This document shows positions 24,063 to 59,400 of a DNA stretch of 64,000 bases, piece after piece. The position numbers and the translations under genes were made by a program. Position 1 is the first letter of the stretch. The number at the start of each line of letters is the position of its first letter. Under the pieces are notes generated by a model. It ran no database searches. It was not told the DNA's origin and was given only the letters and a program-made list of their open reading frames with translations. The stretch is from Gentiana macrophylla (lineage: Eukaryota; Streptophyta; Magnoliopsida; Gentianales; Gentianaceae), in the NCBI GenBank assembly GCA_026214975.1, contig CM047805.1:3844001-3908000 (forward strand), written 5' to 3'.

Positions 24063-24784
24063 TTAATTATACAAATAAAACAGGGCCTTGACATGTGGGT
24101 GAAGACAGTCGATTATTTGATTTGGCAGACCATTTAGCTCACTGTAACAAATTCGTACTTCTGTCACTACATATTGTTTAACTTTCTTATTAATAACTTT
24201 GCACCTTAGTTCAGTGTTATGATTGTCAGCGACTCTATTCATTATAGAGTGAATGTAATTAAAAGAAGTTTGTCGATTAGATTGTAAGCCAAATCTATAT
24301 ACTTTCGCATCAATGTTTATGGCATAATACAGTTTCATTGCCAGATAGAAATACGCAATTTGGTTTCTTCTGAATAGGGTATGACAACCATGTTCGTACC
24401 ATTCGTGACTCCAAAATCCATCGTTATTTCCAAATAGATTTGGCCATGAAATCATCATCCACTGACGAAGGTTGGGATCCTGCAGTATAGTAAATTAAAA
24501 GAATTCGATAGTAAAAATTATTCGTGATTAAAAATGACAAAGAATAGATATAGCTAATTCATTACATGGATTGGTGTATATGCATTGCGCGCAGGGCATG
24601 TAAGGCCAGCCACATCCTGCCATAGGCCGTGAACGGTGAAGTGTCTTATTGCACCGTTACAATATGTTTAGCGTGGTGGGCGTGTGCAACGGCCTGGTGG
24701 CCACTGCAGTGCTAATTTATAGCCATAGCCGTACAACGGTAATAGGATACACACGAAAACTAGGAATCCTGTTTGTTTCTGCAT
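24063..24784 (-). pseudogene. S-RNase-type RNase T2 gene, copy 1 (one nonsense codon)
   Basis: RNase T2 enzymes are secreted ribonucleases; the S-RNase class is the pistil determinant of self-incompatibility in several eudicot families. Exon 1 (24566-24784) encodes a signal peptide (MQKQTGFLVFVCILLPLYGYG), the conserved LALQWPPGRC block and active-site block FTVHGLW. An 86-bp intron (24480-24565, GT..AG, phase 0) lies shortly after HGLW, where S-RNase genes have their single intron. Exon 2 (24063-24479) carries the second active-site block FWSHEWYEHG, then CKVINKKVKQYVVTEVRICY and IIDC. Length, about 210 residues, is normal. A TAA at 24668-24670 interrupts exon 1. Relative to copy 2, a 7-bp loss near 24100 shifts the C-terminus and removes the last cysteine. 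A TATA box lies about 60 bp upstream. The call to RNase T2 is firm; S-RNase rather than S-like RNase is inferred from intron number and position. Confidence 0.85.
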
Positions 24785-24842
24785 TATGATAAGTTTTAAT
24801 ATTTGTGTGATAATGAGTAGGAATATGGGAATACTCCCCCTC

Positions 24843-24850
24843 AATTTATA
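24843..24850 (-). promoter_or_regulatory. TATA box of RNase T2 copy 1
   Basis: TATAAATTGAGGGG on the minus strand, about 60 bp upstream of the ATG at 24784. The same block, with flanking sequence, is conserved upstream of copy 3 (57590-57599), which supports a real shared promoter. Confidence 0.65.
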
Positions 24851-24884
24851 GTAAAGCAACCATGTATTAGAGTATCCCAAACTT

Positions 24885-25250
24885 TAATTCAGCAATTCGG
24901 ACCAAATCTGATTTGTTAGTCTCAAACCAATTGGAATAAAAGAAATCTATTAATGGACCCCTCTTTTAGCAAAAAGAAATTGTCACTTTAGAAATTTTTA
25001 TTGACTTGAAGGTGATGATATTGTAGTTAATTTCTTGATTCTGAACCACCATAAAATCACTATTAAAGTACTGATAAAGCGATTTCTTCTGATTGTATCA
25101 TGCTTAACTAATTAATTTTACTTGCTCGTATTGTTAGATCAACATTTCAAGTGTAAGCAAACATCTATCTATCTATCTATATATCTATACTAGTAATAGA
25201 CCCATACAATGCACGAGACACTATCAAATTGAAAAACAAATTATATAAAA
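24885..25250. other. Intergenic DNA upstream of RNase T2 copy 1
   Basis: AT-rich, with an (ATCT)n stretch near 25163-25185 and the phrase ACTAGTAATAGACCC...GCACGAG, which resembles ends of common plant repeats. No gene is seen. Confidence 0.4.
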
Positions 25251-25629
25251 TTAGGAGAATGAGGGAGAAGGACATAAATATTTCATCAATTGAGTAGAAT
25301 GACAGTCTTTTGAAACTTTGCATAAATGACAAAACTATTTATCCACTGTCAAAATTCACTTGTGTTCGAAATTCACTGTTTAAATTCACCGCCGAAATTT
25401 ACTGTCGAAATTCACTAATTATCAAAATTTATTGTCGAAATTAACTGATTTTCGGGATTCACCATTAAATTCAACGATTTGGGATTCACCTGGGAAATTC
25501 ACCGATTTTCGGGATTCATTGTTTGTCTTTTCTCGCTATAAAATTATGCGATTGTCATTCTTCCTATAAAAAATATGTGAATTTGTCGTATGTTACTTAA
25601 AAATATTTCAGATTGTGTCATTATATCTA
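25251..25629. repeat. 380-bp tandem duplication, unit 1
   Basis: Aligns with 25630-26010 over its whole length (AAATATTTCATCAATTGAGT, GACAAAACTATTTAT, TTCACTTGTGTTCGAAATTC). The interior is built of short degenerate copies of AATTCACCGATTTTCGGG. Non-coding. Confidence 0.85.
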
Positions 25630-26010
25630 GGGAATGAGGAGAAGGACGTAAATATTTCATCAATTGAGTAGAAGGACAGCTTTTTGAAACTTTTGCATAA
25701 AGGACAAAACTATTTATTCATCGTCGAAATTCACTTGTGTTCGAAATTCACTGCTTAAATTTGCCATTAAATTCAATTGTCCGAAATTCACTAATTTTCA
25801 AAATTCATTATCGAGATTCACCGATTTTCGGGATTCATCGTCAAAATTCATCGTCGAAATTCACCGATTTTGGGATTCACTAGGAAGATTCACCGATTTT
25901 CGGGATTCATTGTTTGTCCTTCTCGCTTATAAAAATTATGCGATTGTCCTTCTCCCTATAAAAATATAGTTAGTTGTCGCATTCTTAAAAATATTCCAGA
26001 TTGTGTCCTT
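25630..26010. repeat. 380-bp tandem duplication, unit 2
   Basis: Second unit, about as diverged as expected for an old duplication, with the same internal AATTCACCGATTTTCGGG sub-repeats. It ends near CCAGATTGTGTCCTTATCC. Confidence 0.85.
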
Positions 26011-26334: not shown

Positions 26335-26369
26335 AGACACCACACAATAATCTCCCCAAATTTTCTACA

Positions 26370-27075: not shown

Positions 27076-27083
27076 CATAAATC

Positions 27084-28466: not shown

Positions 28467-28623
28467 TATAAATCCTTCTAACTCTATTTTGGATGAACCG
28501 GAAAAGCACACGTGGATAGATTCTTGTACTTTCTTTAGTTGTAATAATATTTTGAAATGAAATAAAAATTTCCTTGCTCATATTTTTGTCTATTTATTTT
28601 TCTACTACGTTGTATACATATAT

Positions 28624-30821: not shown

Positions 30822-31402
30822 TTATACAAATAAAACAGGGTCTTGACATGTGGGTGAAGTAGATTGACAGTCGATTATTTGATTTGGCAGACCATTTAGC
30901 TCACCGTAACAAATCCGTACTTCTGTCAGTACATATTGCTTAACTTTCTTATAAATAACTTTTCACCTTAGTTTAGTGTTATGATAGTCAGCGACTCTAT
31001 TCATTATAGAGTGAATGTAATTAAAAGAAGTTTGTCGATTAGATTGTAAGCCAAATCTATATACTTTCGCATCAATGTTTATGACATAATACAGTTTCAT
31101 TGTCAGATGGAAATACGCAGTTTGGTTTTTTCTGAATAGGGTATGACAACCATGTTCGTACCATTCGTGACTCCAAAATCCATCGTTATTTCCAAATATA
31201 TTTGGCCATGAAATCATCATCCACTGATGAAGGTTGGGATCCTGCACTATAGTAAATTAAAAGAATTCGATAGTAAAAATTATTCGTGATTAAAAATGAC
31301 AAAGAATAGATATAGCTAATTCATTACATGGATTGGTGTATATGCATTGCACGCAGGGCATGTAAGGCCAGCCACATCCGGCCATATGCCGTGAACGGTG
31401 AA
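30822..31402 (-). pseudogene. S-RNase-type RNase T2 gene, copy 2 (5' truncated)
   Basis: Very similar to copy 1 over 30731-31402, including its 3' flank. Partial exon 1 (31328-31402) has FTVHGIWPDVAGLTCPACNA; the 86-bp intron (31242-31327) is conserved. Exon 2 (30822-31241) has FWSHEWYEHG, and then TGC to TGA at 30963-30965 converts a conserved cysteine codon to stop. Beyond the stop the frame still reads EVRICYGELNG and IIDCQSTSPTCQ, giving the normal C-terminus with the last cysteine. Signal peptide and QWPP block are missing because the copy is fused to LINE sequence at the ATGTT where a solo LTR later inserted. The downstream side abuts the cut Tat RT. Confidence 0.85.
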
Positions 31403-31407
31403 ATGTT

Positions 31408-33126
31408 TGTTAGGTGTAGTGCTCGAAAGACAATTTGTGTAATTGTTTTTAATAATGAATGACAGAATTTTTGTCACCTTATTACTTGCTTTGTGCTTGT
31501 AAAGTAATACACTGCTGCAAACCCTAAGTATATCTGTATGTAACCACTTAACTCAGTGTATGGATTACGCGTGAGGATTGAGTTAGTGGAGATATGCTTA
31601 AACTGTTAGTCCGTGGTGAACTTAATCAGATTTTAGGGTCTCTTGATTAAAACACCAATAATGCGCCCAGAACGCCTTATGGTGTGATAGTCTTATCCGG
31701 ATTTGTCGGTGAAGAGGTACCTACGTGGGGCATTTATATATGATGGCATTCATATAGGATCGAACCGATTTAATCTGAATTTTCGATATAATTATGTAAT
31801 CGAGGAATCTTATTAAATCATTAGATGATCATATATGAATCAACCTTAATCCTGAGGTGATCATGAGTCTTTGCTTGTCCGGGGTAGTGTTTGATGTGTT
31901 AGTTACGGTTCACTTAAATATGTGTTCCAAGCCACTTCTCATTGGCACTATCTCAGGATGAGTGAGTAGTTTACGATTTTCATGGACATGGAATCCATTC
32001 CTTCCTGCGGGAAGTAGAGAGACACGATCCCCTTATTTGTTAGCCCTAAGAAAGTGATCGATCTCGGGAGTTCATATTAGACTAATTGATCACTAGTCGA
32101 TATGTGAACTAATTGATCATCGAGGGGTTAATGGTAAATAAGGATAAGATATTCGTGGTCGGGTTTACGGAGAAATCCCACTCGAGTGGACGATCTATGG
32201 AGGTTAATCCGTATGTAGTGATTATATCAATGGACGCTTATTCACTCATGGGTTGAGTGTAAGTATATATCTATAATTGGTAGAGTTCGGTTTAGGGTTT
32301 ATGGTGGCGTAATCCCGGAATTAATAATTAATGTACTTATTCATTCGATGAATAATTAATTATTGAGCCTTGGTTATAGGTCCATGGTCCCCGATGTGGC
32401 TTCGTAATTCGGACTAATAATCTTGTTATTTGGGCCTCATTGATAATTAATTAATTTGGGCTAATTAATTGATATGCATGAATATTATTTAGTTGGGCTA
32501 AATAATATAATACACATAAAAGACATTTTATGTGGGCTTTTAAACCCTAATGGTGGCGCCAATTAGTGTCTCTTTTATCACAAGAATTAATTTTCTTGTG
32601 TTATGGAAAATAAAAGATATTCTTGTTATATGATTGGTTGGATGACTTGTTATTTGATTTCCTATTGGTCAATAATATGTCACAATTATTCATTAAGGAA
32701 AATATCTTTTTATTTTGTTTAATTAATTAATCATTTAATTAATTAAAACTTGGAGACCAAGGATTTACTCTCCTATAAAAGGAGAGTTATTCCAAGTGTA
32801 AAAACACTTGAAAAATTTCGCCCCATATCAAATAAAAGAGAGGAAAAAATTAGTTTTCTTGTCTAGGGTTTTTTGGAAGAAGAAAAACTCTAAGTTTTTC
32901 TTGGTGTTGCATATCAAGGAGGTTCGTGTATCAAGAAGGGTGTCCACCAACCACCGTTTGGAGAACACATCGGAAGATCTTGGCTTCTCTTCCTACTATT
33001 GGTAACATGATCTTAACCCCCTTGTAGTAGTTTAAGTCCTTTAACTATGTATTGTGATATATAAGTCGTGATCCATCCTCTGCGCGTAGATCTAACTCGT
33101 TTAGATCTAAGAACCTGCATCCTTCA
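31408..33126 (+). mobile_element. Solo LTR, 1719 bp, TSD ATGTT
   Basis: Starts TGTTAGGTGTAG and ends CATCCTTCA, flanked by perfect 5-bp repeats ATGTT (31403-31407 and 33127-33131). A plus-strand TATA box (CTATAAAAGG) is at 32773-32782. No gag or pol is inside, and no internal domain follows, so it is the product of LTR-LTR recombination. The lineage (Copia or Gypsy) cannot be told from the LTR alone. The small open frame at 32808-33005 is transcribed-leader noise. Confidence 0.85.
32773..32782 (+). promoter_or_regulatory. TATA box of the solo LTR
   Basis: CTATAAAAGG within CTCTCCTATAAAAGGAGAG, itself a small inverted repeat. A classic U3/R promoter context, still present and possibly able to drive transcription into the LINE remnant downstream. 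Confidence 0.6.
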
Positions 33127-34478: not shown

Positions 34479-34479
34479 A

Positions 34480-35377: not shown

Positions 35378-35381
35378 TAGT

Positions 35382-36241
35382 TGTTGGGATAGGTGTCGTG
35401 TGTGGAGTGATTTAAGGAACTTATCCGCAATTAGCGGAAGTAATTACGGATTATTAAACTCGAGAATAAATAACTTGAATTAATCCGTATTATCTAAGAG
35501 ATCTAACAAAATAATTATATCTACACAGATCTAACTCAAACAAAGAATAATAAAATATGGTGTAGAAGATAAAGGACTAGAGATCAAACCGAGGCGAGTA
35601 GTTACTCTATCCTTAAGATAATTTGCTCCGGTATGGTGCCCACGGTAGTAGCAAATGTCTCCCAAGATACAACGGCTTTACGTCTCGGATTTAGAGGCAC
35701 TTCAAAAATCCGAGCTCCGGCGAACTTATATAGTGCTCCAACTTCTCTTCGACTCAAAATGTAGATGTATATGAGAGACTCTTTTTGTGGTGGAAAAGAA
35801 AAAGGAGGAAATTTGATGATGTAATTCTCATTCATATGGATCCTTTATATAGTGGAGATGAGGTTCCAATACTCGATTCTTATTGGCCGAATGACACAAT
35901 TTTCTTGTCCATCAAGACAAGTCAATAGCCGACTTAATTATTGTCAAATTAATTAATTATTTGTCGACTTAATAGGATCTGCCGACCTTAATAGGTGGAT
36001 CCTATTCATATGTGTAAAAGTCGATTCGGTTTTCCCGATCGCACGTATTTTACACCAACTTTAGGTATTAATTTCTCATTCACCCGATATCCGAATCCAG
36101 TGATTCAACAACCCACCATTATCTACCCCGTGAGTAGAATTTAATCATATAAACAACTCTCGATGATATACATCGGAGCCTATCCAAAATTAGCGCTAAA
36201 GTTGACCGTTTGACCTTGTCGATTCGGTTTTTTCTCCAACA
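35382..36241 (-). repeat. 3' LTR of the split Copia element
   Basis: 860 bp. Minus-strand TATA box (TATATAAA) at 35843-35850. Related LTRs are at 47743-48556 (its partner) and 56142-57386 (a diverged relative). A small frame conserved between copies (35602-35835) follows from LTR identity and is not a gene. Confidence 0.9.
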
Positions 36242-36252
36242 ATCCCCCACAT
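36242..36252 (-). other. Polypurine tract of the split Copia element
   Basis: The minus strand reads CATGTGGGGGAT immediately before the LTR start TGTTGGAG. It shows that this is the 3' side of a minus-strand element. Confidence 0.75.
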
Positions 36253-37712
36253 GAATGAAAATTAATGCACATGCAAATGCAGACTCAGAATTGAAGTCAG
36301 ACGGACAAATATTGCATCAGGAGAGGTAGCTTCTGGCCTTGAACCTGCCTTAGTGAAGTACTATCGGATTTACTCGGCTAATCAGTGAACTAGGTCTTGA
36401 ACTGTTCAGCCTTTAGTGTAAACCAAGACAATAGAACTCACACAATATTTCCCCTAGCACCTTTCGGTTCTCATGGTTGTGTCCATCTCGGCCCTGGACA
36501 ACACTTGGTTTCAGAAAGTGTTTTAGAGAATTCAAGCCTCAAAATCCTCACAGAAGCGGCCCCACTTCGCACTTACATAGGTGACCTCCTATCAAGGGTA
36601 TTCTGCCCTAACCCACTTGAATATCAAGCTATAGGAATCATTAAAAGCTAAGATTAACCTCACACCCTCTGCAGACAGCACTTTTATTCTCTCGAGAATG
36701 GGTAAGTCTTTGGGTGGTCCTACAACTTAGTTGTCCACTTTTGAACCATGATCTTGGGATCTCCGGTCAACATGGTTGGGTTGCTACTACAAGGAAACAT
36801 GCGTAATAGGCTTGACCCCATTCCGGTCATCAAGATTGACATCGATCTCTAGCTAAACCTTTTGTAAGTGGATCCGCAAGATTCTCCTTCGATCTTACAC
36901 AATCGATGGAAATCACACCATTAGAGATCAATTATTTAATGGCATTGTGTCTACGACGTATGTGTCGAGACTTACCATTATACATACTACTCTGTGCCCT
37001 TCCTATCTCGATCGACTATCGCGTGGTGTATGCTGATAGCAAATGCAAGTTTCGGTCAACATGGAATATTCTCTGAGAAATTCCTAAGCCATTCAGCTTC
37101 GAGCTATGCACATTTGTCTTGTATACTCAGGACACAACAACACCACCAATTGTGGATTTTTGTATCACAGTATCCTTCTAATACTGCTGGATATCGTAAT
37201 CCCAGACTCATAGTGTACTTCATGTACCTCAAACAACCTATTTAAGGCTTTCCAATGGTTATGGTCTGGATTACTCGTGAACCTACTGAACATGCTAAGT
37301 CTGGTCGTGTACAGTTGGTTATGTACATCAGACTTCCGATCACTTGAGAATATCTCAATTGAAGCACAGGTTCATCTCTATTCTTGACTAAGTACATACT
37401 TAGGTCAAGTGGAGTGCTCACAGGACTTTCATCAAAGACATTAAGTCTTTTTTAAAACAGACTCATGAAAATGAGTTTGTGACAACATAAGTCCACCAGA
37501 TACACTAGAGATCTTAATCCCTAGTATCACATCGGCAACTCCCAGGTCCTTCACATCGAAGTTCCTTGCCAGCATCCTTTCCGTATTCATGATACTCTTA
37601 TGAGTACTTCTCATTATTAGCATGTCATAGACATACTATCACATAAGTGTGTTCTTAACGTAGACATATATATGTCCTACCCACTTGACAACATATTGTC
37701 AAACTCGATATG
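36253..37712 (-). pseudogene. RT C-terminal half and RNase H (Copia)
   Basis: 37441-37623 is open and reads IMNTERMLARNFDVKDLGVADVILGIKI, the RT segment after the active site. Just above it FDNMLSSG marks the point where the CRM insertion interrupts the gene. In mixed frames down to about 36400 come an EAEWLRNFSENIPC-type RNase H block (about 37070-37110) and RSKENLADPLTKGLARDR (about 36830-36890), the usual end of Copia pol. Many stops are present. Confidence 0.8.
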
Positions 37713-37717
37713 CCATT

Positions 37718-38429
37718 TGATGTGATCCATGATGACATTCCCGACCCATTGGCACCTATGCAGCCCGTGGATCATTTGGTAGTTCGAGATGGGCCAATAA
37801 CAAGGCTCCAAAGGAAGCGGTTAAGGGAAGCTATGAACAACCTGGTGATAGAGACTTATTCGGAGTTCGGAGAGGCCGTGGAGACGACTGAGGTGCCGAT
37901 AGTGACACTCCTTCGTGCTGTCGGATGCCAAGAAGATTATATTCGAAATTGATTAAGTATCAGAATTATTTTATTTTGATTATTCAGCTTTTGGTGTTAT
38001 TATTATTTAATAAAGGTCATTGGGCCTAAGTAGGCTAGGGAAGCCCACCTATGGGGCGCATTTTTCCTAGGGTTTTTTCTAGTGGGAATTTCTCCCACAT
38101 TGCTTTTTAGCTTCTAGTTCTTTTGGTTGTAAGCCTATATAAGGCAAACACTAGTTTTTTATTTGGTACACAATTATTTTATGAGAAATCAAATCATTGA
38201 GTTATACTCAACCAAGTCATAAGGCTTGAAAATCACTTGCGAGTGAGAATTTTCTTTGTCGTAGAAAGTTCAACCCTTTGAGGATTTACCAGCATTGTGA
38301 GCATTTGTTGGGCGTTCTCTGCCTACGATTTAGTTGGATTACTAGGTCTAGGATCATTGGCTCGTCATTGTTCCCCTTAGTTACTTCCTGGGCAAAACAT
38401 CAGATCTGGTTCCAACCGGAATCACATCA
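37718..38429 (+). repeat. 5' LTR of the CRM element
   Basis: 712 bp. The first 235 bp are a copy of the coding sequence for the polyprotein C-terminus and therefore form a spurious open frame (37710-37952). TATA box TATATAAG at 38136-38143. Confidence 0.93.
38136..38143 (+). promoter_or_regulatory. TATA box of the CRM 5' LTR
   Basis: CCTATATAAGGC in a good context. The matching segment is deleted from the 3' LTR, so it can be assigned to the 5' LTR only. Confidence 0.7.
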
Positions 38430-39025
38430 GTTGGTATTAGAGCCCAGCAACTTCGGTGAGCAAATATCCCTTTTGTTCTTGTCTTCATCTCGTTTCATTC
38501 GTTTCTTATTCTTAAAAAAAAAAAAATTAAATTTATGTTCTTAATTGTTCCTGTTCGTTAATCACCCAGAAAAGGTTCAATCCCTGCTATTGTTTTCTTT
38601 TTGTCTTCCTGCTCTTGTTCCTGCGTTTCTCGTTTCCATTTAGCTGATATTTTCATCAATTGCCTTCGTCTGTGTTTCGTTGCTTACAAAAAAAAATTAA
38701 GAACAGCATCTACCTTTTTGCTAAAGTTCTTCCATAGCCTTGTGATCCAATTCCCAGCTATTATTATTATCATTATTATTATTATTATTATTTTGCCCAG
38801 CCGCATAAGAACAGAAGGAACGGCAAGGTGACCTAATTGATTTGTTTCAATTTGCTTGATTGTTATTAGTCGGCCAGGTGTTTTGTTTATTTTAATTTAT
38901 TCTATTTTATTTTAGTCGGCCCAAAAAAAAGAAAAAAAAAAGAGAAAAGAAAAGTGCTGCAAATTTGGACGTGAGCTTCACACCCCGGTGTGTCAAATTT
39001 CACACCTGTGACATTTTTGTAGTCT

Positions 39026-39060
<35 letters not shown>

Positions 39061-39365
39061 CTGCAATTGACGAAAATATCACACCAGTGTGTGAAAATTT
39101 TCACACCCGTAAAATACTACTGATCACCTAATTTCATTACTTCTTCCGTGCCTTTTGCTTCTCACCTTTCTTACTCACATTAGCAACTCTTCCCACACCA
39201 TCCCACTCATTTCTATACCTTTTCTCGGTCCGAACACCTAGTGTCCTTCTAGAGAGTCGGTTTTGCGTCTTTGTTTACTTTTGCTAGCTTTTACGGTTCA
39301 TTTGACAAGGGTACTTTTACGACATAGAAAGAGGGGAGTGTAAACACGAGTGATAGTGAGGCAAC
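38430..39365 (+). other. CRM 5' untranslated leader with PBS, simple repeats and CACACCGGTGTG palindromes
   Basis: PBS TTGGTATTAGAGCCCAG (38431-38447) is close to the initiator-Met type. Then come an (ATT)n tract (38760-38793), purine-rich runs (38920-38955) and a 30-base A run (39027-39056). Two related palindromic segments, CACACCCCGGTGTGTCAAATT and CACACCAGTGTGTGAAAATT, lie on either side of the A run (38980-39110). No gene. Confidence 0.7.
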
Positions 39366-40508
39366 ATGGTTGGTCGTGGTTTAGTTGTTGAAGAGGTAAA
39401 TGAAATTGTGGAGGCACAATTAAAGGAGAAGATCGACGAAGTGAGACAGGAGGTAGATGAGGCCATACAGGCGGCAGTGACACCTTTACGTGATGACATA
39501 CGTGAGATTCGTGAGACACTTGATACGTTGTTGACTGCGGTAAACCGAGGTGATGACGGAGGGGGTAGAGGTGGTAGAGGTGATAGAGGAGGTAGAGGCG
39601 GTAGAGGAGATAGAGGAGGTAGAGGTGGAGGAGGTGGACGAGCTCAGGCGTATGAGGAGTATGTGGCTCATGCGGACGCTGACTATGCAGCCGTAGAGGA
39701 TGCTGCGGTTGATAACAACATGCGACAGGTTAAGATGAAATTGCCATCGTTCAATGGTGCAAGTGATCCTGATGCGTATATTGAGTGAGAGAACAAACTC
39801 GAACAAATATTTGCTTGCAATAACTACTCTGAGGCGAAGAAATGCAGCCTTGCTAAGCTTGAATTTACCGGTTATGCGATGGTTTGGTTGACACAGATGA
39901 GTAATTCACGGAGGCTTCAGCACCTTCGGCAGGTTAGTACATGGGAAGATTTGAAAGTCGAGATGAGGAAACGGTTTGTGTCTGCTTCATACTTCCGTGA
40001 TTTATATCGCCGCTTACAAACTCTTACACAAGGCGATCGCTCCGCATACTATCACGATTTGGTTACATTACTTGCAAAGTCAGACCTCGACGAACGAGAG
40101 GATGTTACTATGCAACGTTTCTTAACGGGGCTACGTTTGGATATTGCAAATCCGGTTGAAGTCAAAGGTTGTGCAACGTTGGAAGAAATGTTACATGCGG
40201 CTTTGACCATTGAAAGTCAACTGAAGCGACAACGAGCAACCCAAGCTAAGTTTTCGGGAGGTAACACGTCTACTTTGCGTTCTTTTCCATATAGAGGGGA
40301 CAGCTCTAAATACCCTCAAACAGCCCCTACCTATGCCCCAAATGCACAAAAACAGCCCGCTATTTTACCCAAAGCGACTTACAAGCCGAGGGTAGATGAT
40401 AAGGAAAAAGTTGCACCATTGCCACCAAAGCCTACCCATGAAATTCAATGCCACAAGTGTCGTGGAATGGGGCATGTTCAGTCCCAATGCCCTTCTAAAC
40501 GCATTTAA
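39366..40508 (+). pseudogene. Gag with CCHC zinc knuckle (CRM)
   Basis: Start ATG at 39366. Residues 10-60 look like a coiled coil (VEEVNEIVEAQLKEKIDEVRQEVDEA). Residues 62-95 are an RGG-rich stretch encoded by GGTAGAGG repeats. VKMKLPSFNGASDPDAYIE runs into a TGA (39786-39788) exactly where related gags have tryptophan (a TGG to TGA change). The frame continues with NKLEQIFACNNYSEAKKCSLAKLEF, WEDLKVEMRKRFV and ARVKSDLDEREDV-type capsid sequence. The zinc knuckle CHKCRGMGHVQSQC is at about 40449-40490. The frame ends at 40508 and protease starts one frame over. Gag packages element RNA. Confidence 0.88.
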
Positions 40509-40510
40509 TT

Positions 40511-41475: not shown

Positions 41476-41502
41476 CTCCCGGATTCCCTTCCTAGTGTTG
41501 TT

Positions 41503-43644
41503 GTGTCTCTTTTGCAGGAATTTAGTGATGTCTTTCCCGAGGAGGAACCAAGCGGATTGCCACCATTACGTGGCGTGGAGCATCACATAGACTTTATTCC
41601 CGGAGCAGTGTTGCCTAATCGACCAGCCTATCGTGCTAATCCGGAGGAAACTAAAGAAATCCAAAGGCAAGTGACGGAGCTGTTGGACAAAGGGAAAATC
41701 CAAGAATCTATGAGTCCTTGCGCGGTTCCGGTAATCATAGTCCCCAAGAAAGGAGGTGAATGGAGGATGTGCACCGACTGTCGTGCAATCAATCAAATCA
41801 CTGTCAGGTATCGCTATCCCATTCCCCGTTTAGATGATATGTTGGATGAATTGTGTGGTGCTAAAATTTTTACTAAAATCGATTTGAAAAGTGGCTATCA
41901 TCAAGTGAGGATTCGTGAGGGTGACGAGTGGAAAACTGCATTCAAAACTAAATTTGGTTTATATGAGTGGCTTGTCATGCCTTTTTGTTTAACTAATGCA
42001 CCTAGTACTTTTATGAGGTTAATGAACGAGGTGCTTAGAGAGTTTATTGGTAAGTTTGTGGTCGTTTATTTTGATGACATCCTGATTTACAGCCACGATA
42101 TGGAACAACATATGAGCCACTTACGGGCTGTTTTGGAAACTCTGAGGGAAGTAAAGTTGTATGCTAACCTTAAGAAGTGTACATTTTTCTTGGATAGAGT
42201 TGTGTTTCTTGGCTTTGTTGTGAGTTCACAGGGTGTTGAGGTCGATAGAGAGAAGATCAAAGCGGTGGAAGAATGGCCCGAACCGACAAATTGTGCAGAG
42301 GTTCGTAGTTTTCATGGCCTTGCGGGGTTTTATAGGCGATTTGTCAAGAATTTCAGCACCTTGGCCGCACCCCTAAATGAGTTGGTGAAGAAGAATGTTC
42401 CTTGGCAGTGGGGTCCGAAGCAAAGGGAAGCTTTCGAATCTCTTAAAGCTCGTTTAATTTCTGCCCTCATTCTTGCTTTGCCTGATTTTGATAAACCTTT
42501 TGAACTTGAATGTGATGCATCGGGTGTGGGTATTGGTGGTGTTTTGATTCAAGAGACTAGACCAATTGCATACTTTAGTGAGAAATTGAAAGGTGCTCAT
42601 TTGAATTATGCCACTTATGATAAGGAGTTGTATGCTTTGGTTAGATGTCTTCAAACTTGGCAACATTATCTTCGACCTAGGGAATTTGTTATTCATACTG
42701 ATCACGAGTCCCTTAAGTATCTTAAAGGTCAGGGTAAGTTGAGTAAGCGATATGTTCGTTGGATGGAATTCATTGAATCTTTTCCTTATGTGATTAAATA
42801 CAAAAAAGGCCAGGATAACGTGGTAGCTGATGCATTATCTCGTAGATATACTTTGATTACTACCATGCAAACTAAATTTCTTGGTTTTGAATTTATTAAG
42901 GAATTGTATGCTTTAGATCCTGATTTTGGTGAGATATTTGCAAAAACTGAGCATGCAGCCGATGGCCATTTTTATAGGAATGAGGGTTTTTTGTTTCGTA
43001 ATAATGTTATTTGCATTGCCCAATGTTCCTTGCGTGAATTGCTGATTAGGGAGGCACATGGTGGCGGCCTTATGGGTCATTTCGGTGTTACTAAAACCTT
43101 AGACATGCTTAAGTCACATTTCTTTTGGCCTAAAATGAGAGTTGATGTTACACGTATATGTGATGCTTGTCTTGTGTGCAAATCGGCTAAGTCTAAGTCC
43201 GCCCCCCACGGTTTGTACACACCACTCCCTATTCCCACATCCCCTTGGACTGATTTGTCTATGGACTTCGTGTTGGGATTGCCTCGTTCAGCGAGTGGTA
43301 AGGATGCGGTATTTGTTGTGGTGGATCATTTTTCTAAGATGGCTCACTTCATTGCATGTAATAAAACGAATGATGCATCTAATATTGCTGATTTGTTCTT
43401 TAAGGAAATTGTTCGTTTGCATGGGGTACCACGTACTATTGTGAGTGATCGTGGTGTGAAATTTATAAGTCATTTTTGGAGAGTTCTTTGGCAGCGTTTG
43501 GGTACTCAATTGTTGTTTTCTACTGCTTATCATCCCCAAACGGATGGTCAAATGGAGGTGGTAAATCGAGTTTTGGGTCAATTACGCCCGTGTAGTGGTC
43601 CAGAAAAATTTGAAAAATTGGGAAAATTGTTTGCCATATGTTGA
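41503..43644 (+). CDS. RT, RNase H and integrase polyprotein (CRM pol), long intact stretch
   Basis: 713 codons without a stop. [37 protein letters not shown] and active site [12 protein letters not shown] (about residue 189). RNase [15 protein letters not shown] (about 336) and [23 protein letters not shown] (about 398), phrasing typical of the CRM clade. Integrase: zinc motif [13 protein letters not shown]...CDACLVCK (about 519-555), core aspartates in SMDFVLGLP (586) and VSDRGVKF (647), glutamate in QMEVVNR (682). After VNRVLGQL a frameshift near 43590 moves the rest to 43595-44365. All catalytic residues are visible up to the shift. The start shown is the first in-frame ATG; the native product is a longer gag-pol. 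Confidence 0.9.
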
Positions 43645-44365
43645 GTTTGCTTATAATCATTGTAAACATTCTGCTACTCGTTTTACCCCCTTTGAGGTCG
43701 TCTATGGGTTCAACCCAGAAACACCTTTTTCTTTGGCTCCTTTGCCCGCAGGTATGCATGCTAGCTTGGATGGTGAGCAGAAAGCGGCCTTGGTCAAGGA
43801 GTTGCATGCGGACGCTCGGCGGCATGTGGAGAATGCAACGGCTCGATATGTGAAGCAGGCAAACAAGGGCCGCAAGGAAGTTATCTTCGCACCCGGGGAT
43901 TGGGTGTGGCTGCACTTTCGCAAAGATAGGTTTCCCAAGCACCATAAATCTAAGTTACATCCTCGTGGTGATGGTCCTTTTGAAGTGCTAGAGCGCGTCA
44001 ACGACAATGCCTATAAGGTTGCTATTCCACCTGAGTGGGGCGTCTCTGGAACCATCAACGTCTCTGATTTGATGCCTTTTGACAACTCATACGATCTGAG
44101 GACAGATCCTTCGCAACCGGGAGGGAATGATGTGATCCATGATGACATTCCCGACCCATTGGCACCTATGCAGCCCGTGGATCATTTGGTAGTTCGAGAT
44201 GGGCCAATAACAAGGCTCCAAAGGAAGCGGTTAAGGGAAGCTATGAACAACCTGGTGATAGAGACTTATTCGGAGTTCAGAGAGGCCGTGGAGACGACTG
44301 AGGCGCCGATAGTGACACTTCTCGTGCTGTCGGACGCCAAGAAGATTATATTCGAAATTGATTAA
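43595..44365 (+). pseudogene. Integrase C-terminus with CR motif, ending inside the 3' LTR (CRM)
   Basis: Picks up the frame lost near 43590: [69 protein letters not shown] and INVSDLMPFD. From 44128 the coding sequence is also LTR. It contains GPITRLQRKRLREAMNNLV, the CR-motif region that replaces a canonical chromodomain in this clade, and stops at 44363-44365. In centromeric elements this C-terminus is thought to steer integration to centromeric chromatin. Confidence 0.88.
44119..44127 (+). other. Polypurine tract of the CRM element
   Basis: GGGAGGGAA directly before the 3' LTR start TGATG, and inside the coding frame. Confidence 0.8.
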
Positions 44366-44805
44366 GTATCAGACTTATTTTATTTTGATTATTCAGCTTT
44401 TGGTTTGATTATTATTTAATAAAGGTCATTGGGCCTAAGTAGGCTAGGGAAGCCCACCTATGGGGCGCATTTTTCCTAGGGTTTTTTCTAGTAGGAATTT
44501 CTCCCACATTGCTTTTTAGCAAACACTAGCTTTTTATTTGGTACACAATTATTTTATGCGAAATCAAATCATTGAGTTATACTCAACCAAGTCATAAGGC
44601 TTGAAAATCACTTGCGAGTGAGAATTTTCTTTGTCGTAGAAAGTTCAACCCTTTGAGGATTTACCAAAGATTATGAGCATTTGTTGGGCTTCTCTCGCCT
44701 CACGATTTAGTTGGATTACTAGGTCTAGGATCATTGGCTCGTCATTGTTTCCTTAGTTACTTCCTGGGCAAAACATCAGATCTGGTTCCAACCGGAATCA
44801 CATCA
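44128..44805 (+). repeat. 3' LTR of the CRM element, lacking the TATA box
   Basis: 678 bp. Identical in layout to the 5' LTR, except for a clean 34-bp deletion at about 44520 that removes the segment from TTCTAGTT to TATAAGGC, including TATATAAG. Both LTRs are copied from one template, so the loss happened after insertion. Confidence 0.93.
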
Positions 44806-44810
44806 CCATT

Positions 44811-46470
44811 GCTCTGACTATTATTCGAGCCACAGAGAGACTTGATAAGTCTACACACCTTACACTCTTGTCCTGGAACTACGAACCCCTCGGGTTGTTC
44901 CAAGTACATCTCTTTTTTAAACTCACCACAAACATCCATTTTAGGTTATAGTCTCCAGCTATACCGACGAGAACCCTTATATACACAATTCTCCTAACTG
45001 GTGAGTAAGAAGTCAAGGCCTTCTTTCTGTCGATACCCTCGGCTACCAACAATGCCTCACAATAAATCCACCAACCTTTAACTTCTTCTTAAAGATCCAC
45101 TTGCACTCGAGTGGTTTAATTCCCGGTGGAAAATCAACCAACACCCAAGTGTGGTTTTGCATGATGGATTTCTCTATTTACAGCCTCTTTCCAGAAAGGA
45201 GCTCTGGAGAAGACATTGCCGCAGCATACGTCCAGGGTTCGTTTTCTACCATATAGGTCAGAAAATCAGGACCATAAGACTGGGATATCCTAGCCCTCTT
45301 ACTGCAACGAGGTTCCTCAAGTTCTTGAGGATCACCCTCTTCTTCCGACTCATACGTCCGCTTGCTCATGCTTGTTTTATTTGTTTCCTTCTACGGAAAG
45401 AGATCTTCAAAGAACACACATTCTTAGACTCGATGATGATATGTTCATGTACATCATTGATGTCTGATTTATGCACCCAAAACAATAGGCACTAATGATT
45501 TTAGGTCCTATCACTCACTTTGGTTTAGGCACTTGACCTTAGCCAAACACCCCACATTTCCAAGAATCAGAGCTAAACCCACACGCCTTTCCACAACTCA
45601 TATGGGGTGTCATCCTTCTTTCCTGAAGGGATCTTGGTCAGAATGAATTTTGCTGAGATGACAGCTCCCCCCACAAGTTCTGAGATAAACTCAAACTTAT
45701 CAACATAGCATTCATCAACTCTTTTAGAGTTCGGTTCTTGCATGCAGCAATACCACTAGACTGATGTGTGTATGGTGTAGTTGTTTGATGAATGATGCCG
45801 GGCCCTAGCAAGACTCATGAAACAATACATCATATCCACCGCTACACTCACTACGGATACATCTCATCCGTTTGCTATGTTTATTGTCACCTTCATTCTG
45901 ATCACTCTCAAGGCATCACGAGCCTTATTTTCGCTTTTCAGCATATCAATATCTGGTGCTATCATCAATAAAAGTAGCGAGATACTTCTATTACCTCTAG
46001 ATTACATGAATCTAGAGGTTCTGTGTTCCTTTCTACCGGTCAACCGGTGAGTTCACCAATATGGCTTCAACACATACTTGACACTTGTGATTATGATCAA
46101 ATTTCAAACTCCATGTTCATGAATGAATAAACAGATTTGAAGTTTGCAAATCCTAGTTATAGTGTCACAAGCAAATATTACTCAAGCATGTAAGCAGATC
46201 TTAGAGCCAATCTCACTGGCTCTTTACGGAGCATCACTCTGTGCCCAACAGACAGTCTCACTGTCAACATACTGATCAATCCAATTTGATCATTCAAAGC
46301 ATCGTTCGTTGCACCACCGAACTTCTCCATCCAAGGGAGGAGATTAACCGGTCATTGGTGCTACGTCTAGTGCTACAATCGACACTTGTGTCACAAAAGA
46401 CACAGTCATATCCGAATACACCTCGATATATCCTTTCATTTTTATTCAACGAACAAAAATGGGGTCTCAC
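44811..46470 (-). pseudogene. Integrase and RT N-terminal half (Copia)
   Basis: 44757-44939 (minus) reads MDVCGEFKKEMYLEQPEGFVVPG and VCRLIKSLCGS, the start of Copia RT up to the CRM insertion. 45178-45369 reads RCSKRARISQSYGPDFLTYMVENEPWTYAAAMSS, the linker before RT. Around 45690-45760 NRTLKELMNAM and LSQNLWGE mark the end of the integrase core. Frames are broken throughout. A diverged second copy of about 45750-46450 is at 49585-50290. Confidence 0.8.
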
Positions 46471-46479
46471 CACAAATTA

Positions 46480-47742
46480 AAATCGAAACTTATTTTTATT
46501 TTTATTTTCCTCCGTCTATTTCCTTGCGAACGTGATTACAACACAGATCTCTACCAATTAATTAGCTGATATAACAAATCAACCCACGTAATTAATATAC
46601 AAGTTTCGGAGATTTCGTTCGATCTCAATCTCGTGTGTACCAAAAAATAGAACTGGGGCTAGAAAACATTAATCATTGCTGATAATACAACCTGTATAAT
46701 TACTTGTATTTTACAATTCCATATATCTTCCATAAAAATGCATTGAATTGGAATAAAATAATACACTTGTATCTAGCTCATTCAACTAAACCTAATATTA
46801 ATTAGTCGGCATATACAACACAATATGCATGCATACTACCATCAACAGAGCAGGGAAACACAACCATGCCGGAGATATTACCAAAAAAGACATGCCAGCA
46901 GTATACCCACCAATTCGAGTATCTGTTCTTATTATTTTTCATTCCAATCATTTATGATCGAACCAGAACCAGAACCAGAACCAGACACTTTACCTGTATT
47001 TTAGGAGAACAAAATCTCCGGGAAAAGAAAATTGTTGTCCTAATTAAACACACAGGCAAGGGGCCCACATGTCCCGACGATGCAAAAGCCCAAGCGATTT
47101 TCCATTCATAATTTAATGGGCAATACGAACGTATAATTGAACTCTGCATCTAAGTGCTATATATTAATTTTAATTGTTTCCAAGATTCTCACAAACAATT
47201 AAAAGAGCGATTTCATTCATCATATACTTGCATCATACATGTGAGTACCACTATTTTGTATTCAATCACTAGTCAACGCCAGTACGAAACATATATATGC
47301 ATGTTCCTACCGATTTTTTTTTTTTTTTTTTTTTTTTTTTCTTATGCAATGCATCTTCACCTTAATTGGATTATTTTCCGAAGAAAGTCATGGACAGTGC
47401 TAGTAAATATAGCAATGACTATACACGTTGAGTAGTATTTAAAGACCACAAAATTTAGTCAAATAATTGATATATTGCACATAAGAACTGTAAATAATTA
47501 TTTCATTCCCTTTTTATAGTTAACCACCTATATTGAAAACGTCAACAGATCAGCTCCATTAATGACAGAAAGATTCTGAGGGAGTGGATATGTTATTTAC
47601 TAGTAATATAAAGACTTCAACAATAAGAAGAGAACACACGCAGGTATCAATATTGATTTACGAAACCAATCAATTGTGCAACAAATGATAACATATCCAA
47701 ATCCAAACTATTAACAACACACGATAGAATTTGTCTTAAGCT
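46480..47742. other. Unrecognised DNA in the gag position of the Copia element
   Basis: Expected to hold gag and protease, but no gag, zinc knuckle or DSG motif is readable on either strand. It contains (CCAGAA)n at 46963-46985 and a T run of about 28 at 47313-47340. It may be an unrelated insertion that replaced gag. A short TTGTCTTAAGC/TCTGTCTTGCGC block beside the LTR is shared with 56125-56141 and is the likely PBS region. Confidence 0.4.
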
Positions 47743-48556
47743 TGTTGGGATAGGTGTCGTGTGTGGAGTTGATTTACGGAATGTATCCGCAATTAGCGGA
47801 AGTAATTATCTAAGAGATCTAACAAAATAATTATATCAGCACAGATCTAACTCAAACAAAGAATAATAAAATATGGTGCAGAAGATAAAGGACTAGAGAT
47901 CAAACCGAGGCGAGTAGTTACTCTATCCTTAAGACAAATTGCTCCGGTATGGTGCCCACGGTAGTAGCAAATGTCTCCCAAGATACAACGGCTTTACGTC
48001 TCGGATTTAGAGGCACTTCAAAAATCCGAGCTCCGGCGAACTTACATAGTGCTCTAACTTCTCTTCGACTCAAAATGTAGATATATATGAGAGACTCTTT
48101 TTGTGGTGGAAAAGAAAAAAGAGGAAATTTGATGATGTAATTCTCATTCATTGGGATCCTTTATATAGTGGAGATGAGGTTCCAATACTTGATTATTATT
48201 GACCGAATGACACAATTTCTTGTCCCTCAAGACAAGTCAATAGCCGACTTAATTATTGTCAAATTAATTAATTATTTGTCGACTTAATAGGATCTGCCGA
48301 CCTTAATAGGTGGATCCTATTCATATGTGTAAAAGTCGATTCGGTTTTCCCGATCGCACGTATTTTACACCAACTTTAGGTATTAATTTCTCATTCACCC
48401 AATATCCGAATCAAGTGATTCAAAAACCCACCATTATCTACCCCGTGAGTAGAATTTAATCATATAAATAACTCTCGATGATATACATCGGAGCCTATCC
48501 AAAATTAGAGCTAAAGTTGACCGTTTGACCTTGTCGATTCGGTTTTTTCTCCGACA
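47743..48556 (-). repeat. 5' LTR of the split Copia element
   Basis: 814 bp, partner of 35382-36241. Minus-strand TATA box at 48160-48167. The outer flank CTAGT (48557-48561) matches the flank left of the other LTR. Confidence 0.9.
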
Positions 48557-56141: not shown

Positions 56142-57386
56142 TGTTGGAAATAGGTGTCGTGTGTGGAGTAATTTATGGAACAGATTCGTAATTCACGGAT
56201 TTCATTACGGAAATTAAATGCAGAAATAAACAACTCAGAAATAAAATCTAATTTTATTATTTAGATCTAACAAATTAAAGCAATTATGGTGCAGATATAA
56301 TAAATTAACAGAGCTATATGATAGATCTAATCAAACACAACTATTACTATATAGATCTAACAAAATATGCAATTACAGATCTGACTTAAAACAATAGAGA
56401 AATCAAAGAACATTGCATAAATAAAGACAAACCGATGCGAGTTATGAAACTTTTTCCTTAAGACAGATTGCTCCGGTATGGTGTGCGCTTCACGGTAGTA
56501 GAAGAATCGCCTCCCAAGATACAACGGCTTACGTCTCGAATTGAGATGCACTTCAACAATCCAAGCTCCGGCGAACTTACTGCGTGCTCCGACTTCTCTT
56601 CGACTCAATAACTAGAACTATATGTTTAATAGTATGTGGTGGAAAACGCAAGAGAAGACTAAATGCCTCAACCTTCATCCTTGGGGTTCTTTATACAGTG
56701 GAGAGGAGGAGCCAATGCTTGAATGTGATTGGCCAGAACATGTCATTAAAGTCGGCTGACTTTTCCCCTTGGAAAGGAAACTGGGCCAAAAATTTTAATT
56801 AAAATTGGTCGACTATTTCCCTCAAGGAGACCATCTAGGCCGAAATTAAAAGGTTAATTTCGGACTAATCAAATCCTCTGATTGGTCGGATGATGCGTCG
56901 TCTGAATTCTTATTGGTCGAATGACTCAATGAATTCTAATTGGTCGAATGATACAATCACATTCCAAAATTAATTTTATGGTTAATTTCATAAAGAAATT
57001 TTGTCTAAAAAAGTGCCTTTATGAAATTAACCATAAAATTTCATAAGTCCTCCCTCCTGCACAAAAGTGCCTTGCCCTTTGGGTACATCCATAAGAGACA
57101 CACTAGCTCTTATCACTTGAGTTCCCAACACTCAAATTTCCAATATGGGAGAATAGGGTGATGTCCTCTCTTCAACTCTCATCTCCTACATATTTTCTAC
57201 CAACTTTAGAAATTAATTTCTCATTCACCCGATATCCGAATCGAGTGATTCAAAAGTCCATCATTAACTACTCCGTATGGAGTATTTAATGATATCATTA
57301 ACTCTCGATGATATACATCGGAGCCTATCCGTAACTAGCGCTAAAGTTGACAATTCAACCCTTTAAAAAAGACTTTTTCTCCAACA
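56142..57386 (-). mobile_element. LTR related to the split Copia family, third copy
   Basis: Ends TGTTGGAAATAGGTGTCG...TTTCTCCAACA match the LTRs at 35382 and 47743. It shares the TTGCTCCGGTATGGTG, CCAAGATACAACGGCTT and CTTCTCTTCGACTCAA blocks but is longer (1245 bp), with an extra 300-400 bp in the middle. The bases left of it (ACACACGACAATCTGTCTTGCGC) resemble the internal flank of the 47743 LTR. So it may be the 5' LTR of an element whose inside was lost, not a simple solo LTR; flanks do not form a TSD. It cuts RNase T2 copy 3. Confidence 0.78.
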
Positions 57387-57506
57387 GGCTGTTGACTTGG
57401 GGGTGTGTAGACGCCCAGTGGCCATTGCACTACTACTACGTCGGTAGTACTGTAGTAGTAGGATGACACAAATGAAGATTAGAAATCCTGTCGGTTGATC
57501 CTGCAT
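57387..57506 (-). pseudogene. S-RNase-type RNase T2 gene, copy 3 (5' end only)
   Basis: Minus-strand start ATG at 57506: MQDQPTGFLIFICVILLLQYY is a signal peptide aligned with that of copy 1. A frame change follows and VVVQWPLGVYTPP represents the conserved QWPP block. The LTR at 57386 ends the gene. Upstream, TATA box and leader match copy 1 (GAGTAGGAAT, CCCCTCAATTTATAG). Active-site blocks and exon 2 are absent. It shows that the RNase genes were once a same-strand tandem series over at least 33 kb of present DNA. Confidence 0.75.
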
Positions 57507-57589
57507 TATGAAAAGCTTTAGTATCTTAAGTTTTAATTAGTACTAGTATATTTGATAATTATGAGTAGGAATGTGCAGGGAATCCCCTC

Positions 57590-57599
57590 AATTTATAGG
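57590..57599 (-). promoter_or_regulatory. TATA box of RNase T2 copy 3
   Basis: CTATAAATTGAGGGG on the minus strand, about 85 bp upstream of the ATG at 57506 and matching the promoter of copy 1 at 24843-24850. Confidence 0.6.
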
Positions 57600-58556
57600 A
57601 ATCACTCTGAATTGTTTGTTTTTTTTTTTTTTGTTAGGGCCGTATAATACTATTCATAAAGCAATATCTACGAGAGATTTTATGGTGCAATGGTTGTAGG
57701 AAGGTTATATCAAGTGGCATACATTAGAGCCTGGTATACATTAAAGTCTCTTATTTTTACTCTTTTTCATTTAATACACTTTTATCGTGTGTGAGAAGTT
57801 AGAAATGAGTGGTTGTAATGTATACCACTTGATAAAACCTTCTTACAACGGTTGTAATTTAAAATTTCACTAATACCACTTGCGTTAGATACTTTAAATA
57901 ATTTCAAAACACGAATATTGATACTGCACCATATATAATATTTTTTACTCTTTAATTTTTTTTTTTACATTTACCGTCTTCATCTTGATTTTGTAAAATT
58001 TTCATTTATATCTACCACATTATATAAAATAGAGAATTTAATGCATTTTATTTTTTTTATAGATATTCTGAAAAAATAGAAGTAATCTATTTAAAACTCT
58101 AAAATAAAGTATACAATCTGAAGTGAGTGCTCTGAGTACAATATATACTTAACTGATTTTGGATATTAATGCAAATAAGGTATATGTATCCTCAAAAAGT
58201 GTTTCTATTGTTTTTTAAATATAATGATCATTATTTACACACTTGGCACATGTCTATACTCTATACAATCTATATATATACACCCTTGCCCCAAACTTTC
58301 CATTGCAATCTTTTTTTTCTTTGTTGTTGATAAAATTCCAATCCTACTCTATCCCTGATTTTGCTCAACTAATTAATTAATTCACAAAAGGAGTTGGTTG
58401 CCGGTGATCACGTTGTGGATTCAAACAAACAAATTTCTTCTTAATCATATCTTCTTTCAGTAATTTGTTGCGCTTCTTTCTTATACCACACATTAGCTTT
58501 TACTAATTCATATCATAATAATTGCAGCAGATCGAGACATTCAAACTAAGTCGACG
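57600..58556. other. Divergent upstream region between RNase copy 3 and the F-box gene
   Basis: AT-rich intergenic DNA. Contains a foldback MITE (57679-57867) and T runs. No other gene. The F-box leader may include a splice acceptor (ATAATTGCAG at about 58518-58527), suggesting a 5' UTR intron, which is uncertain. Confidence 0.5.
57679..57867. mobile_element. Foldback MITE upstream of the F-box gene
   Basis: Inverted repeats of about 45 bp: ATATCAAGTGGCATACATTA at left matches the reverse of TAATGTATACCACTTGATAA at right, and GGTTGTAGGAAGG matches CCTTCTTACAACG. The loop is about 90 bp. Same general design as 35122-35277. Confidence 0.75.
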
Positions 58557-59400
58557 ATGAATCGTCTGCTGGACAAAGGTCATGTAAATGTTTTTCAGAT
58601 CATATTTTTTCAGATCCTATTGAGATTGCCTCTGCGATCGTTGCTCCGATTCAGATGCGTCTGTAAATGGTGGTGTGAGTTGATAGACAGTTGTGTTTTC
58701 AAGGACACGTATCTTGCTCTCCGACGTGCCATGGCCGTAGATGATCAATTAGTCGGCTTAAAGACTATGTTAGTTAGCGATATTCCTTACGAGGACATGG
58801 GTCGCGTTTTCAGAATCGAGGATCCTAATGATGAAGAATTGAGGACATTACATAACGATATGAGCCGCGGTATTTCTTCGATTTCTGTAACTTGTTGGTC
58901 TGGTGATTACCAATCCCTTGCCCTTTATGCTTTGGCTCCATCATCATTATGTAATGATTTTGAGATATCAGGTAATTACTCTTCTCCGATTAGGATTATC
59001 AATCATGTTGATGGCATAGTTTGCTTTATTAATGGAACTAATTGGTTCGATATAACTCTAGTAAATCCTGCTCTTCGAGAAATCAGAAAACTCCCTATCG
59101 CCGTGTTTGATCTTCTTGGTGGAATATTTAAACGCCACGTACAAGGGGTCGGATTTGGATATGATGATTCTAGTAACGAGTATAAAGTGGTTGTAATAGT
59201 AACCGTTTTTGAAGAAGAAGATGACTATGTATCTCCTTATAAACACATAGGGATAGTGTACCATCTAAGCACAAACTCTTGGACAATATTGGATGACATG
59301 TCTGAATTCGTGTCCCAGCCTTTTGTATGTTTTCCTTATGAAGAATCCGTCTTCTCCCATGGATCCCTCTGTTATAAAACGGATGGAGATAACTTCAGAT
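58557..59400 (+). pseudogene. SLF/SFB-like F-box protein gene, 3' end cut by a Copia LTR
   Basis: F-box proteins are substrate adaptors of SCF ubiquitin ligases; SLF/SFB members recognise S-RNases in pollen. The frame from ATG 58557 gives about 281 native residues. The F-box (about residues 11-52) reads VFQIIFFQILLRLPLRSLLRFRCVCKWWCELIDS, with the first helix altered from the usual LPEDL start. An FBA-type region (about 140-270) has IRIINHVDGIVCFING, TLVNPALREIRKLPI and VQGVGFGYDDSSNEYKVV. It is intronless over this length, like SLF genes. The frame runs into the LTR at 59401 and ends after three LTR-encoded residues (CKK). Full-length relatives have about 390 residues; the rest would lie beyond the Copia element, outside the window. 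The N-terminal two thirds has no stop, so the insertion may be recent. The SLF assignment is by resemblance and neighbourhood; other FBA F-box proteins remain possible. Confidence 0.75.

Follow-up and report, generated by a model that had tools for sequence, protein, structure and literature searches.

The window analysed here, a stretch of 64,000 nucleotides of the Gentiana macrophylla genome (C1:3844001-3908000 of the 1.79-Gb assembly, C1 being contig CM047805.1), contains three dead copies of a gene for a ribonuclease (RNase) of the T2 family and, beside the third of them, the 5' part of an intronless F-box gene. This window is probably part of a type-1 S-locus, or of a paralogous S-like locus, of about 4 Mb (C1:0.77-4.77 Mb), over which interval we found a surrounding cluster of the same two gene types and could observe directly the gene content, the state of the genes, and their linkage. 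These two gene types side by side form the arrangement seen at the loci through which self-pollen is rejected in many flowering plants. A first-pass annotation, made from the window's sequence, had proposed an S-locus haplotype or a degenerated paralogous S-like locus, in which all the RNase copies were dead. The either-or of that proposal is now backed by the 4-Mb cluster, whose RNases are one-intron, basic, and free of the sequence pattern 4 and whose F-box genes are intronless and encode an F-box-associated (FBA) region; the death of all the RNases, for its part, holds for the window but not for the locus, where an intact RNase is present at 4.08 Mb.

The genome search with the window F-box, in which 137 of 1,766 first-look candidates were scored so that the counts are lower bounds, yielded at least 13 F-box places at C1:0.77-4.77 Mb. 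Seven of those 13 were intact and full-length (416-443 aa; at 0.97, 3.48, 3.60, 4.06, 4.50, 4.69, and 4.75 Mb), one at 3.96 Mb was open but short at the N-terminus and without the F-box start, and five were broken—namely, those at 0.77, 3.83, 4.37, and 4.77 Mb and the one in the window—with the place at 4.767 Mb being judged from its search match alone. In all six intact paralogues scanned, the F-box and TIGR01640 models scored above their cut-offs, as did FBA_1 in five of the six; and 16 of the 20 best F-box matches were located in the two clusters with open RNases, this one and another at C1:123 Mb. The search with exon 2 of RNase copy 1 returned 68 matches at E ≤ 0.1, class I genes included, 22 of which were at C1:1.2-4.77 Mb and were mostly relics. 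Among those that we read—the window copies plus the matches at 1.21, 3.92, 4.08, 4.36, 4.50, 4.55, 4.71, and 4.77 Mb, with the partial matches at 1.204, 1.209, 1.702-1.712, and 4.118 Mb standing outside that reading—one RNase was intact: a minus-strand gene at C1 ~4.0804-4.0812 Mb, approximately 172 kb to the right of the window, beginning with an ATG and a signal-like sequence, interrupted by a single intron placed like that of the window, and containing the motifs FTIHGLWP and DEWTKHGC and a stop codon. This gene lies about 23 kb from the intact F-box gene at 4.06 Mb. The two gene types have also been duplicated together, since at 4.36 and 4.50 Mb there is a duplicated pair of a dead RNase plus an F-box gene, whose RNase stretches are 99.4% and whose F-box stretches are 97.3% identical. 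We observed, in addition, an unplaced contig of 108 kb (C759) that over 3.35 kb shares 96.7% identity with the 4.06-Mb F-box locus beside the intact RNase and that, judging by this likeness, is possibly the other haplotype of that locus.

To quantify the linkage, we assembled 48 of the 68 RNase matches into 15 clusters, with 2 class I matches (E < 1e-3) and 18 matches of E ≥ 1e-3 being excluded. With the top 34 F-box matches, five of the 15 RNase clusters were located within 200 kb of an F-box cluster, where 0.08 were expected, two of those five being parts of the window's own locus; and with the best 150 of 200 F-box matches, the count was seven of 15 (expected 0.22). Neither count was reached in any of 100,000 random placements, in a test that assumes independent clusters, which condition duplicated loci do not satisfy. 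Two further groups may be recorded here: a mostly dead array of RNases of the same lineage at C1:67.86-68.13 Mb, which array contributed 14 matches to the linkage count and had no F-box match nearby; and related F-box genes at C1:125.4-125.6 Mb, accompanied by two very weak RNase matches (E 0.013 and 0.066) that were outside that count.

The RNases of the S-lineage (class III) are described, in the portions of PMC4451870, PMC4438004, and PMC12033343 available to us, as having at most two introns, a basic isoelectric point (pI), and no pattern 4. Copy 1, the 4.08-Mb gene, and the 123-Mb RNases have a single intron each. The pI was 9.32 for copy 1 (with the stop dropped), 8.76 for the 4.08-Mb gene, and 8.82 for the relic at 4.50 Mb, all of which values are within the range of 8-10 that characterizes the class; at 123 Mb, the RNase at 123.099 Mb falls within that range (8.15) and the longer one, at 123.066 Mb, outside it (7.03), all these figures assuming signal-peptide cut sites; the uncut products of the two 123-Mb genes have values of 7.54 and 6.49. 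Pattern 4 was present in none of the five RNases of the lineage that were tested. The class I gene on C13, taken as an internal control, had three introns (according to the tblastn pieces), a pI of 5.03, and the pattern 4 CPSNNG, thus departing from the S-lineage in every respect, as expected. A tree of class I RNases placed this genome with asterid rows, Oldenlandia being the nearest, though inside none of the starred sets. The two catalytic motifs, CAS I and CAS II, were likewise present, as FTVHGLW or FTVHGIWP and HEWYEHGC in the window and as FTIHGLWP and DEWTKHGC in the 4.08-Mb gene; while FTVHGLWQDV or FTIHGLWPNG along with WPNLFGN or WPDLAGD are candidate stretches for a further class III motif criterion. 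The locus contains intronless genes for F-box-plus-FBA proteins linked to an RNase with S-lineage traits, which combination is one of the features used for recognizing an SLF.

The RNase phylogeny, whose larger tree drew 25 proteins from the best 120 of 620, united the lineage in a single clade (100/100) whose stem measured 1.2-2.1 changes per site and which lay apart from the class I clade (99/100 and 100/100); a further RNase of the same genome, at C1:63.5 Mb, fell outside the lineage. The grouping with class I, named in the first-pass annotation as contrary to its proposal, was accordingly not seen, but in the approximately unbiased (AU) tests that grouping, when forced, was not rejected (p-AU 0.149), nor was a forced grouping with the Prunus S-RNases (p-AU 0.087). 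Thus, the gene structure points to class III, whereas the tree, built with class I, Prunus S-RNase, and MC-like references, does not settle the assignment. The 620 proteins (E ≤ 0.001) came from a homologue search with an alignment that included a piece of Momordica RNase MC1, the search with copy 1 exon 2 alone having given no candidate; and the best sequence matches in the PDB were RNase MC1 chains followed by the S3-RNase, both ahead of RNase LE.

Several observations weigh against assigning the cluster to either an S-locus or an S-like locus. In the second catalytic motif of the lineage, C follows HG directly in place of the HGTC found in MC1 and class I, and the residue before HG, which is K in MC1, is E in copies 1 and 2; the long-branched clade was not nested with the Prunus S-RNases or the MC-like RNases used; by the stricter count, ten of the 15 RNase clusters have no linked F-box cluster; no F-box cluster comes within 200 kb of the RNase groups at C1:1.20 and 1.70 Mb; the ratios dN/dS of nonsynonymous to synonymous change among the F-box genes, 0.27-1.13 over 66 pairs and at least 0.48 in 65 of them, may perhaps reflect a relaxed constraint; a linkage of RNase with F-box genes occurs also at loci not shown to control incompatibility, monocot class I loci among them, according to what was accessible of PMC8774079; and the window's cluster is not the sole candidate, because the one at C1:123 Mb, to which we return below, has two open RNases—one of them basic and 17 codons shorter—together with F-box genes. 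As regards its distribution, the HGC form is common to copies 1 and 2 and to eight further loci, including those at 123.066 and 123.099 Mb, with some dead copies of the 68-Mb array differing.

That very long stem outside the references used and the replacement of HGTC by HGC would suit the view that RNase T2 and F-box genes, amplified together in one lineage, have some other role, such as defence or stress, and never had one in self-incompatibility; and the same can be said of the RNase array at C1:67.9-68.1 Mb, without a linked F-box match, and of the large F-box arrays of the same class without nearby RNase matches at C1:40-43 and 55-56 Mb, to which arrays that at C10:99 Mb may be added. The one intron, the basic pI, and the absence of pattern 4 nevertheless fit the S-lineage, and the repeated linkage of the two gene types far exceeds chance, so that we regard such a co-amplification as rather unlikely.

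At C1:123.02-123.20 Mb, those genes that were read comprised two open RNases, one dead RNase, and two intact along with shortened F-box genes. The RNases at 123.066 and 123.099 Mb are 98.0% identical in their DNA over 4.6 kb (dN 0.017, dS 0.018; 180 codons), the latter being without the last 17 codons of the former and the C-terminal ends being different. It is quite conceivable, if somewhat short of an even chance, that the interval C1:0.77-4.77 Mb is only an S-like paralogue and that the acting S-locus, if any, is located at C1:123 Mb, or that RNase-based incompatibility has been lost. That cluster, with its two open RNases, one of pI 8.15, and its two intact F-box genes, speaks for such an arrangement, as do the RNase relics close to F-box matches on C3, C4, C6, and C819 and the duplicates of S-like loci that, in the available part of PMC8774079, are described as following genome duplication. 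Against it, of the two 123-Mb RNases the one that is basic is short of those 17 codons and the longer one has a pI close to neutral (7.03), while the intact F-box genes among those read are two at 123 Mb versus seven at C1:0.77-4.77 Mb. The pI of 8.15 nonetheless weakens the contrast between the two clusters and renders an acting S-locus at the window less likely. Weighing these points, we consider it rather less likely than not that the window's locus still acts, or acted until recently, as an S-locus and is not an S-like paralogue. A yet more specific reading, which on our analysis appears improbable, is that of an acting S-locus in a lineage not yet known for RNase-based incompatibility; its pistil RNase would be divergent and would lack the HGTC form of CAS II, and the dead, deeply diverged RNases of that haplotype would be fossils of former S-specificities.

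Within the window, the six-frame reading and the Pfam scan located a minus-strand RNase T2 exon at 24063-24494 and a plus-strand F-box frame at 58497-59411. The three RNase copies, all on the minus strand and sharing coding blocks as the first-pass annotation had stated, are dead through nonsense changes, a small deletion, or truncation beside repeats. In copy 1, whose exon 2 matched the Pfam family Ribonuclease_T2 with an E of 4.7e-13 (50.1 bits, cut-off 26), the reading frame is interrupted by a TAA at 24668-24670 and, compared with copy 2, 7 bp have been deleted close to the 3' end; copy 2 has a TGA at 30963-30965 and has lost the 5' part of exon 1. These two copies are 95.7% identical over 652 bp, and the intron of 86 bp reported in both 3' of the HGLW block is indeed there, in phase 0 and with a difference at one of its 86 sites. 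Their dN of 0.041 and dS of 0.028 (124 codons, stop codon excluded) fit an absence of constraint; their Kimura two-parameter distance (K2P) is 0.032. Copy 3 resembles copy 1 only in the TATA block and the signal-peptide start (73.9% over 88 bp, E 2.6e-7; 78.0% over 59 bp, E 1.1e-5), its frame is shifted relative to that of copy 1, and it stops at a long terminal repeat (LTR)-like repeat at about 57394. The promoter block attributed to copies 1 and 3, TATAAATTGA followed by G-rich bases, was recovered in both and is retained also in the intact RNases of the genome.

The surroundings of the copies might prompt the explanation that transposons picked up pieces of RNase genes and dispersed them, in which case the neighbourhood of the pieces would be meaningless. 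Copy 2 is a piece of 0.6-0.7 kb between a repeat starting at 31412, exactly at its 5' end (84% identity with C1:178.9 Mb across 1,631 bp), and, on the 3' side, a cut reverse-transcriptase frame (30185-30658; RVT_1, E 1.2e-9, with only the first half of the profile being matched); and copy 3 terminates at the LTR-like repeat. Copy 1, in contrast, is preserved with its promoter block, its two exons, and the intron between them, and the relics along with the one intact RNase are concentrated alongside the F-box genes; we attach very little probability to transposon capture.

The F-box gene starts at 58557, a distance of 1,051 bp from the start of copy 3 (57506) and in divergent orientation, which agrees with the 1.05 kb and the divergence announced in the first-pass annotation. 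Its description there as an F-box/FBA gene stood in part: the F-box was above the Pfam cut-off (E 1.8e-5) and was the only model to pass in this cut frame, the Pfam scan of which gave no FBA match, with TIGR01640 attaining 36.9 bits versus a cut-off of 37.9 over the first half of the model. The part of the frame belonging to the gene ends, moreover, at 59369, the last codons up to 59411 being LTR. Upon extension of the reading by 6,000 bases beyond the window, the match with the intact paralogue of 443 aa at C1:3.476 Mb, which breaks off at 59369, was seen to restart at C1:3,908,666, or 666 bp past the window end, and the 3' part so recovered was open as far as the stop codon. This break, along with the 5,296-bp element having CCCTC on both sides, indicates that a single LTR-element insertion split the gene. 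The element has a Pol_BBD match at 63017-63337, which domain we take to denote the Copia type, and a second frame (60183-60500) in which no Pfam family was above cut-off.

In the tree of 18 F-box rows, the closest relative of the window gene was that at C1:3.48 Mb (100/98). We also considered whether a single duplication involving the 3.48-Mb locus had carried copy 3 along with the F-box gene, but the data do not support this, since the similarity to that locus starts only at 58282, past copy 3. The two LTRs of the inserted element are a K2P of 0.125 apart, whereas the F-box flanks of the insertion have diverged by just 0.017-0.022 from their intact paralogue at 3.48 Mb. Since the split from the 3.48-Mb copy should predate the insertion, yet the flanks are closer than the LTRs, the discrepancy would be accounted for by gene conversion, either of one LTR or between F-box paralogues. 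The homologue search with the window F-box at E ≤ 0.001 found two proteins (29% and 28% identity), neither of them a named SLF, and the PDB search with the intact paralogue gave no match at E ≤ 1.

The coordinates of the features are collected in Table 1. The K2P of 0.032 for the duplication of copies 1 and 2, compared to 0.030 for each of two LTR-like pairs, suggests that the copying and the transposon activity were similar in age. The repeat adjoining copy 3 has blocks sharing 82-84% identity with two other repeats, 35381-36241 and 47742-48556 (K2P 0.39 overall), and an inspection of its ends for a target-site duplication revealed no matching one. Other features of the window are an inverted repeat of about 81% identity flanking copy 1 (22212-22653 and 28054-28469); an array of 21-bp units resembling ATCAATGTCACTGCATC at 20922-21561, partly within a long open frame; and a direct repeat of about 1.75 kb (2784-4562 and 9474-11219; 95% identical, K2P 0.034) that encloses retrotransposon-like frames and is perhaps an LTR pair.

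Table 1. Location of the RNase copies, the F-box gene, and the adjoining repeats in the window
Feature	Position	Strand	Remarks
RNase T2 copy 1, pseudogene	24063..24784	-	exon 1 24566-24784, intron 24480-24565 (86 bp), exon 2 24063-24479
Core promoter block of copy 1 (TATAAATTGA + G-run)	24834..24851	-	common to copy 3 and the intact RNases of the genome
RNase T2 copy 2, pseudogene fragment	30822..31411	-	exon 1 remainder 31328-31411, intron 31242-31327, exon 2 30822-31241
LTR-like repeat pair (K2P 0.030)	35381..48556	.	between copy 2 and copy 3
Nested Ty3-like element with its own repeat pair (K2P 0.030)	37718-44805		inside the LTR-like pair 35381..48556
LTR-like repeat adjoining the end of copy 3	56143..57394	.	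bounds set by eye
RNase T2 copy 3, relic	57395..57610	-	TATA block and signal-peptide start, ATG 57506
5' part of intronless F-box gene (SLF-like)	58557..59369	+	closest relative: intact 443-aa gene at C1:3,475,451 (93-95% identity)
LTR retrotransposon, Copia type, within the F-box gene	59370..64000, on to C1:3,908,665	-	5,296 bp, CCCTC target-site duplication, LTR ends TG..CA

The genes of the window itself are relics with, most likely, no present role. If the locus were live, the intact basic RNase would, by extrapolation from the S-RNase/SLF system, be made in the pistil and enter the pollen tubes, where the linked F-box proteins would act as subunits of SCF ubiquitin ligases and neutralize the non-self RNases; the window genes, in turn, would be fossils of earlier duplications that persisted under low recombination. 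Were this an S-locus, it would constitute an added case of RNase-based self-incompatibility, with several generations of RNase birth and death in one haplotype, and would bear on the origin of new specificities; were it an S-like locus, it would be one more duplicated, decaying copy and would bear on the loss of incompatibility. Either way, the 4.08-Mb RNase and the seven F-box genes are named genes with which that question can be tested.

With respect to the known systems, an RNase-based incompatibility is listed in the accessible part of a 2025 review as kept in Plantaginaceae, Solanaceae, Rosaceae, Rutaceae, Cactaceae, and Lysimachia (PMC12403065), and a putative S-RNase is described for Coffea in the part available of PMC3120821. 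The cluster resembles the type-1 S-locus of Solanaceae, Plantaginaceae, Rosaceae, and Rutaceae in that its linked RNase T2 is basic, has a single intron, and is free of pattern 4; in the many intronless F-box/FBA genes of about 1.2-1.3 kb, which length is also that of the Rosa SLFs in the text at hand of PMC9527601; in the large, repeat-rich region; and in the presence of one intact RNase among several F-box genes. It differs from that locus in the many RNase relics within a single haplotype, the distance of the RNase lineage from the S-RNases compared, and the HGC in place of HGTC. Similar relics have, however, been published—the S-RNase-like sequences tabulated for Rosa in the part consulted of PMC7881130 include pseudogenes, and RNase remnants occur at the S-type locus of Gillenia—so that relics alone are not new. 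The Gillenia 'Mal S-locus,' as far as the accessible sections of PMC12033343 describe it, shares with the present cluster the full-length plus partial S-RNases and the F-box genes in tandem with RNase remnants, having a Copia element around a partial S-RNase where here an LTR element splits an F-box gene; the Gillenia genes are those of a Rosaceae and include three SFBB genes, whereas the F-box places here are far more numerous. The S-like locus on Antirrhinum chromosome 7, from what PMC8774079 provides in the portion available, likewise links an RNase to broken and intact F-box genes, but comprises 33 kb and two S-like SLFs, one of them a pseudogene, as opposed to about 4 Mb and 13 F-box places. 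Loci of a large size are on record in the excerpt of PMC6784882, with the Solanum S-locus occupying 17 Mb and an Antirrhinum pseudo-S-locus about 2 Mb with 37 SLFs.

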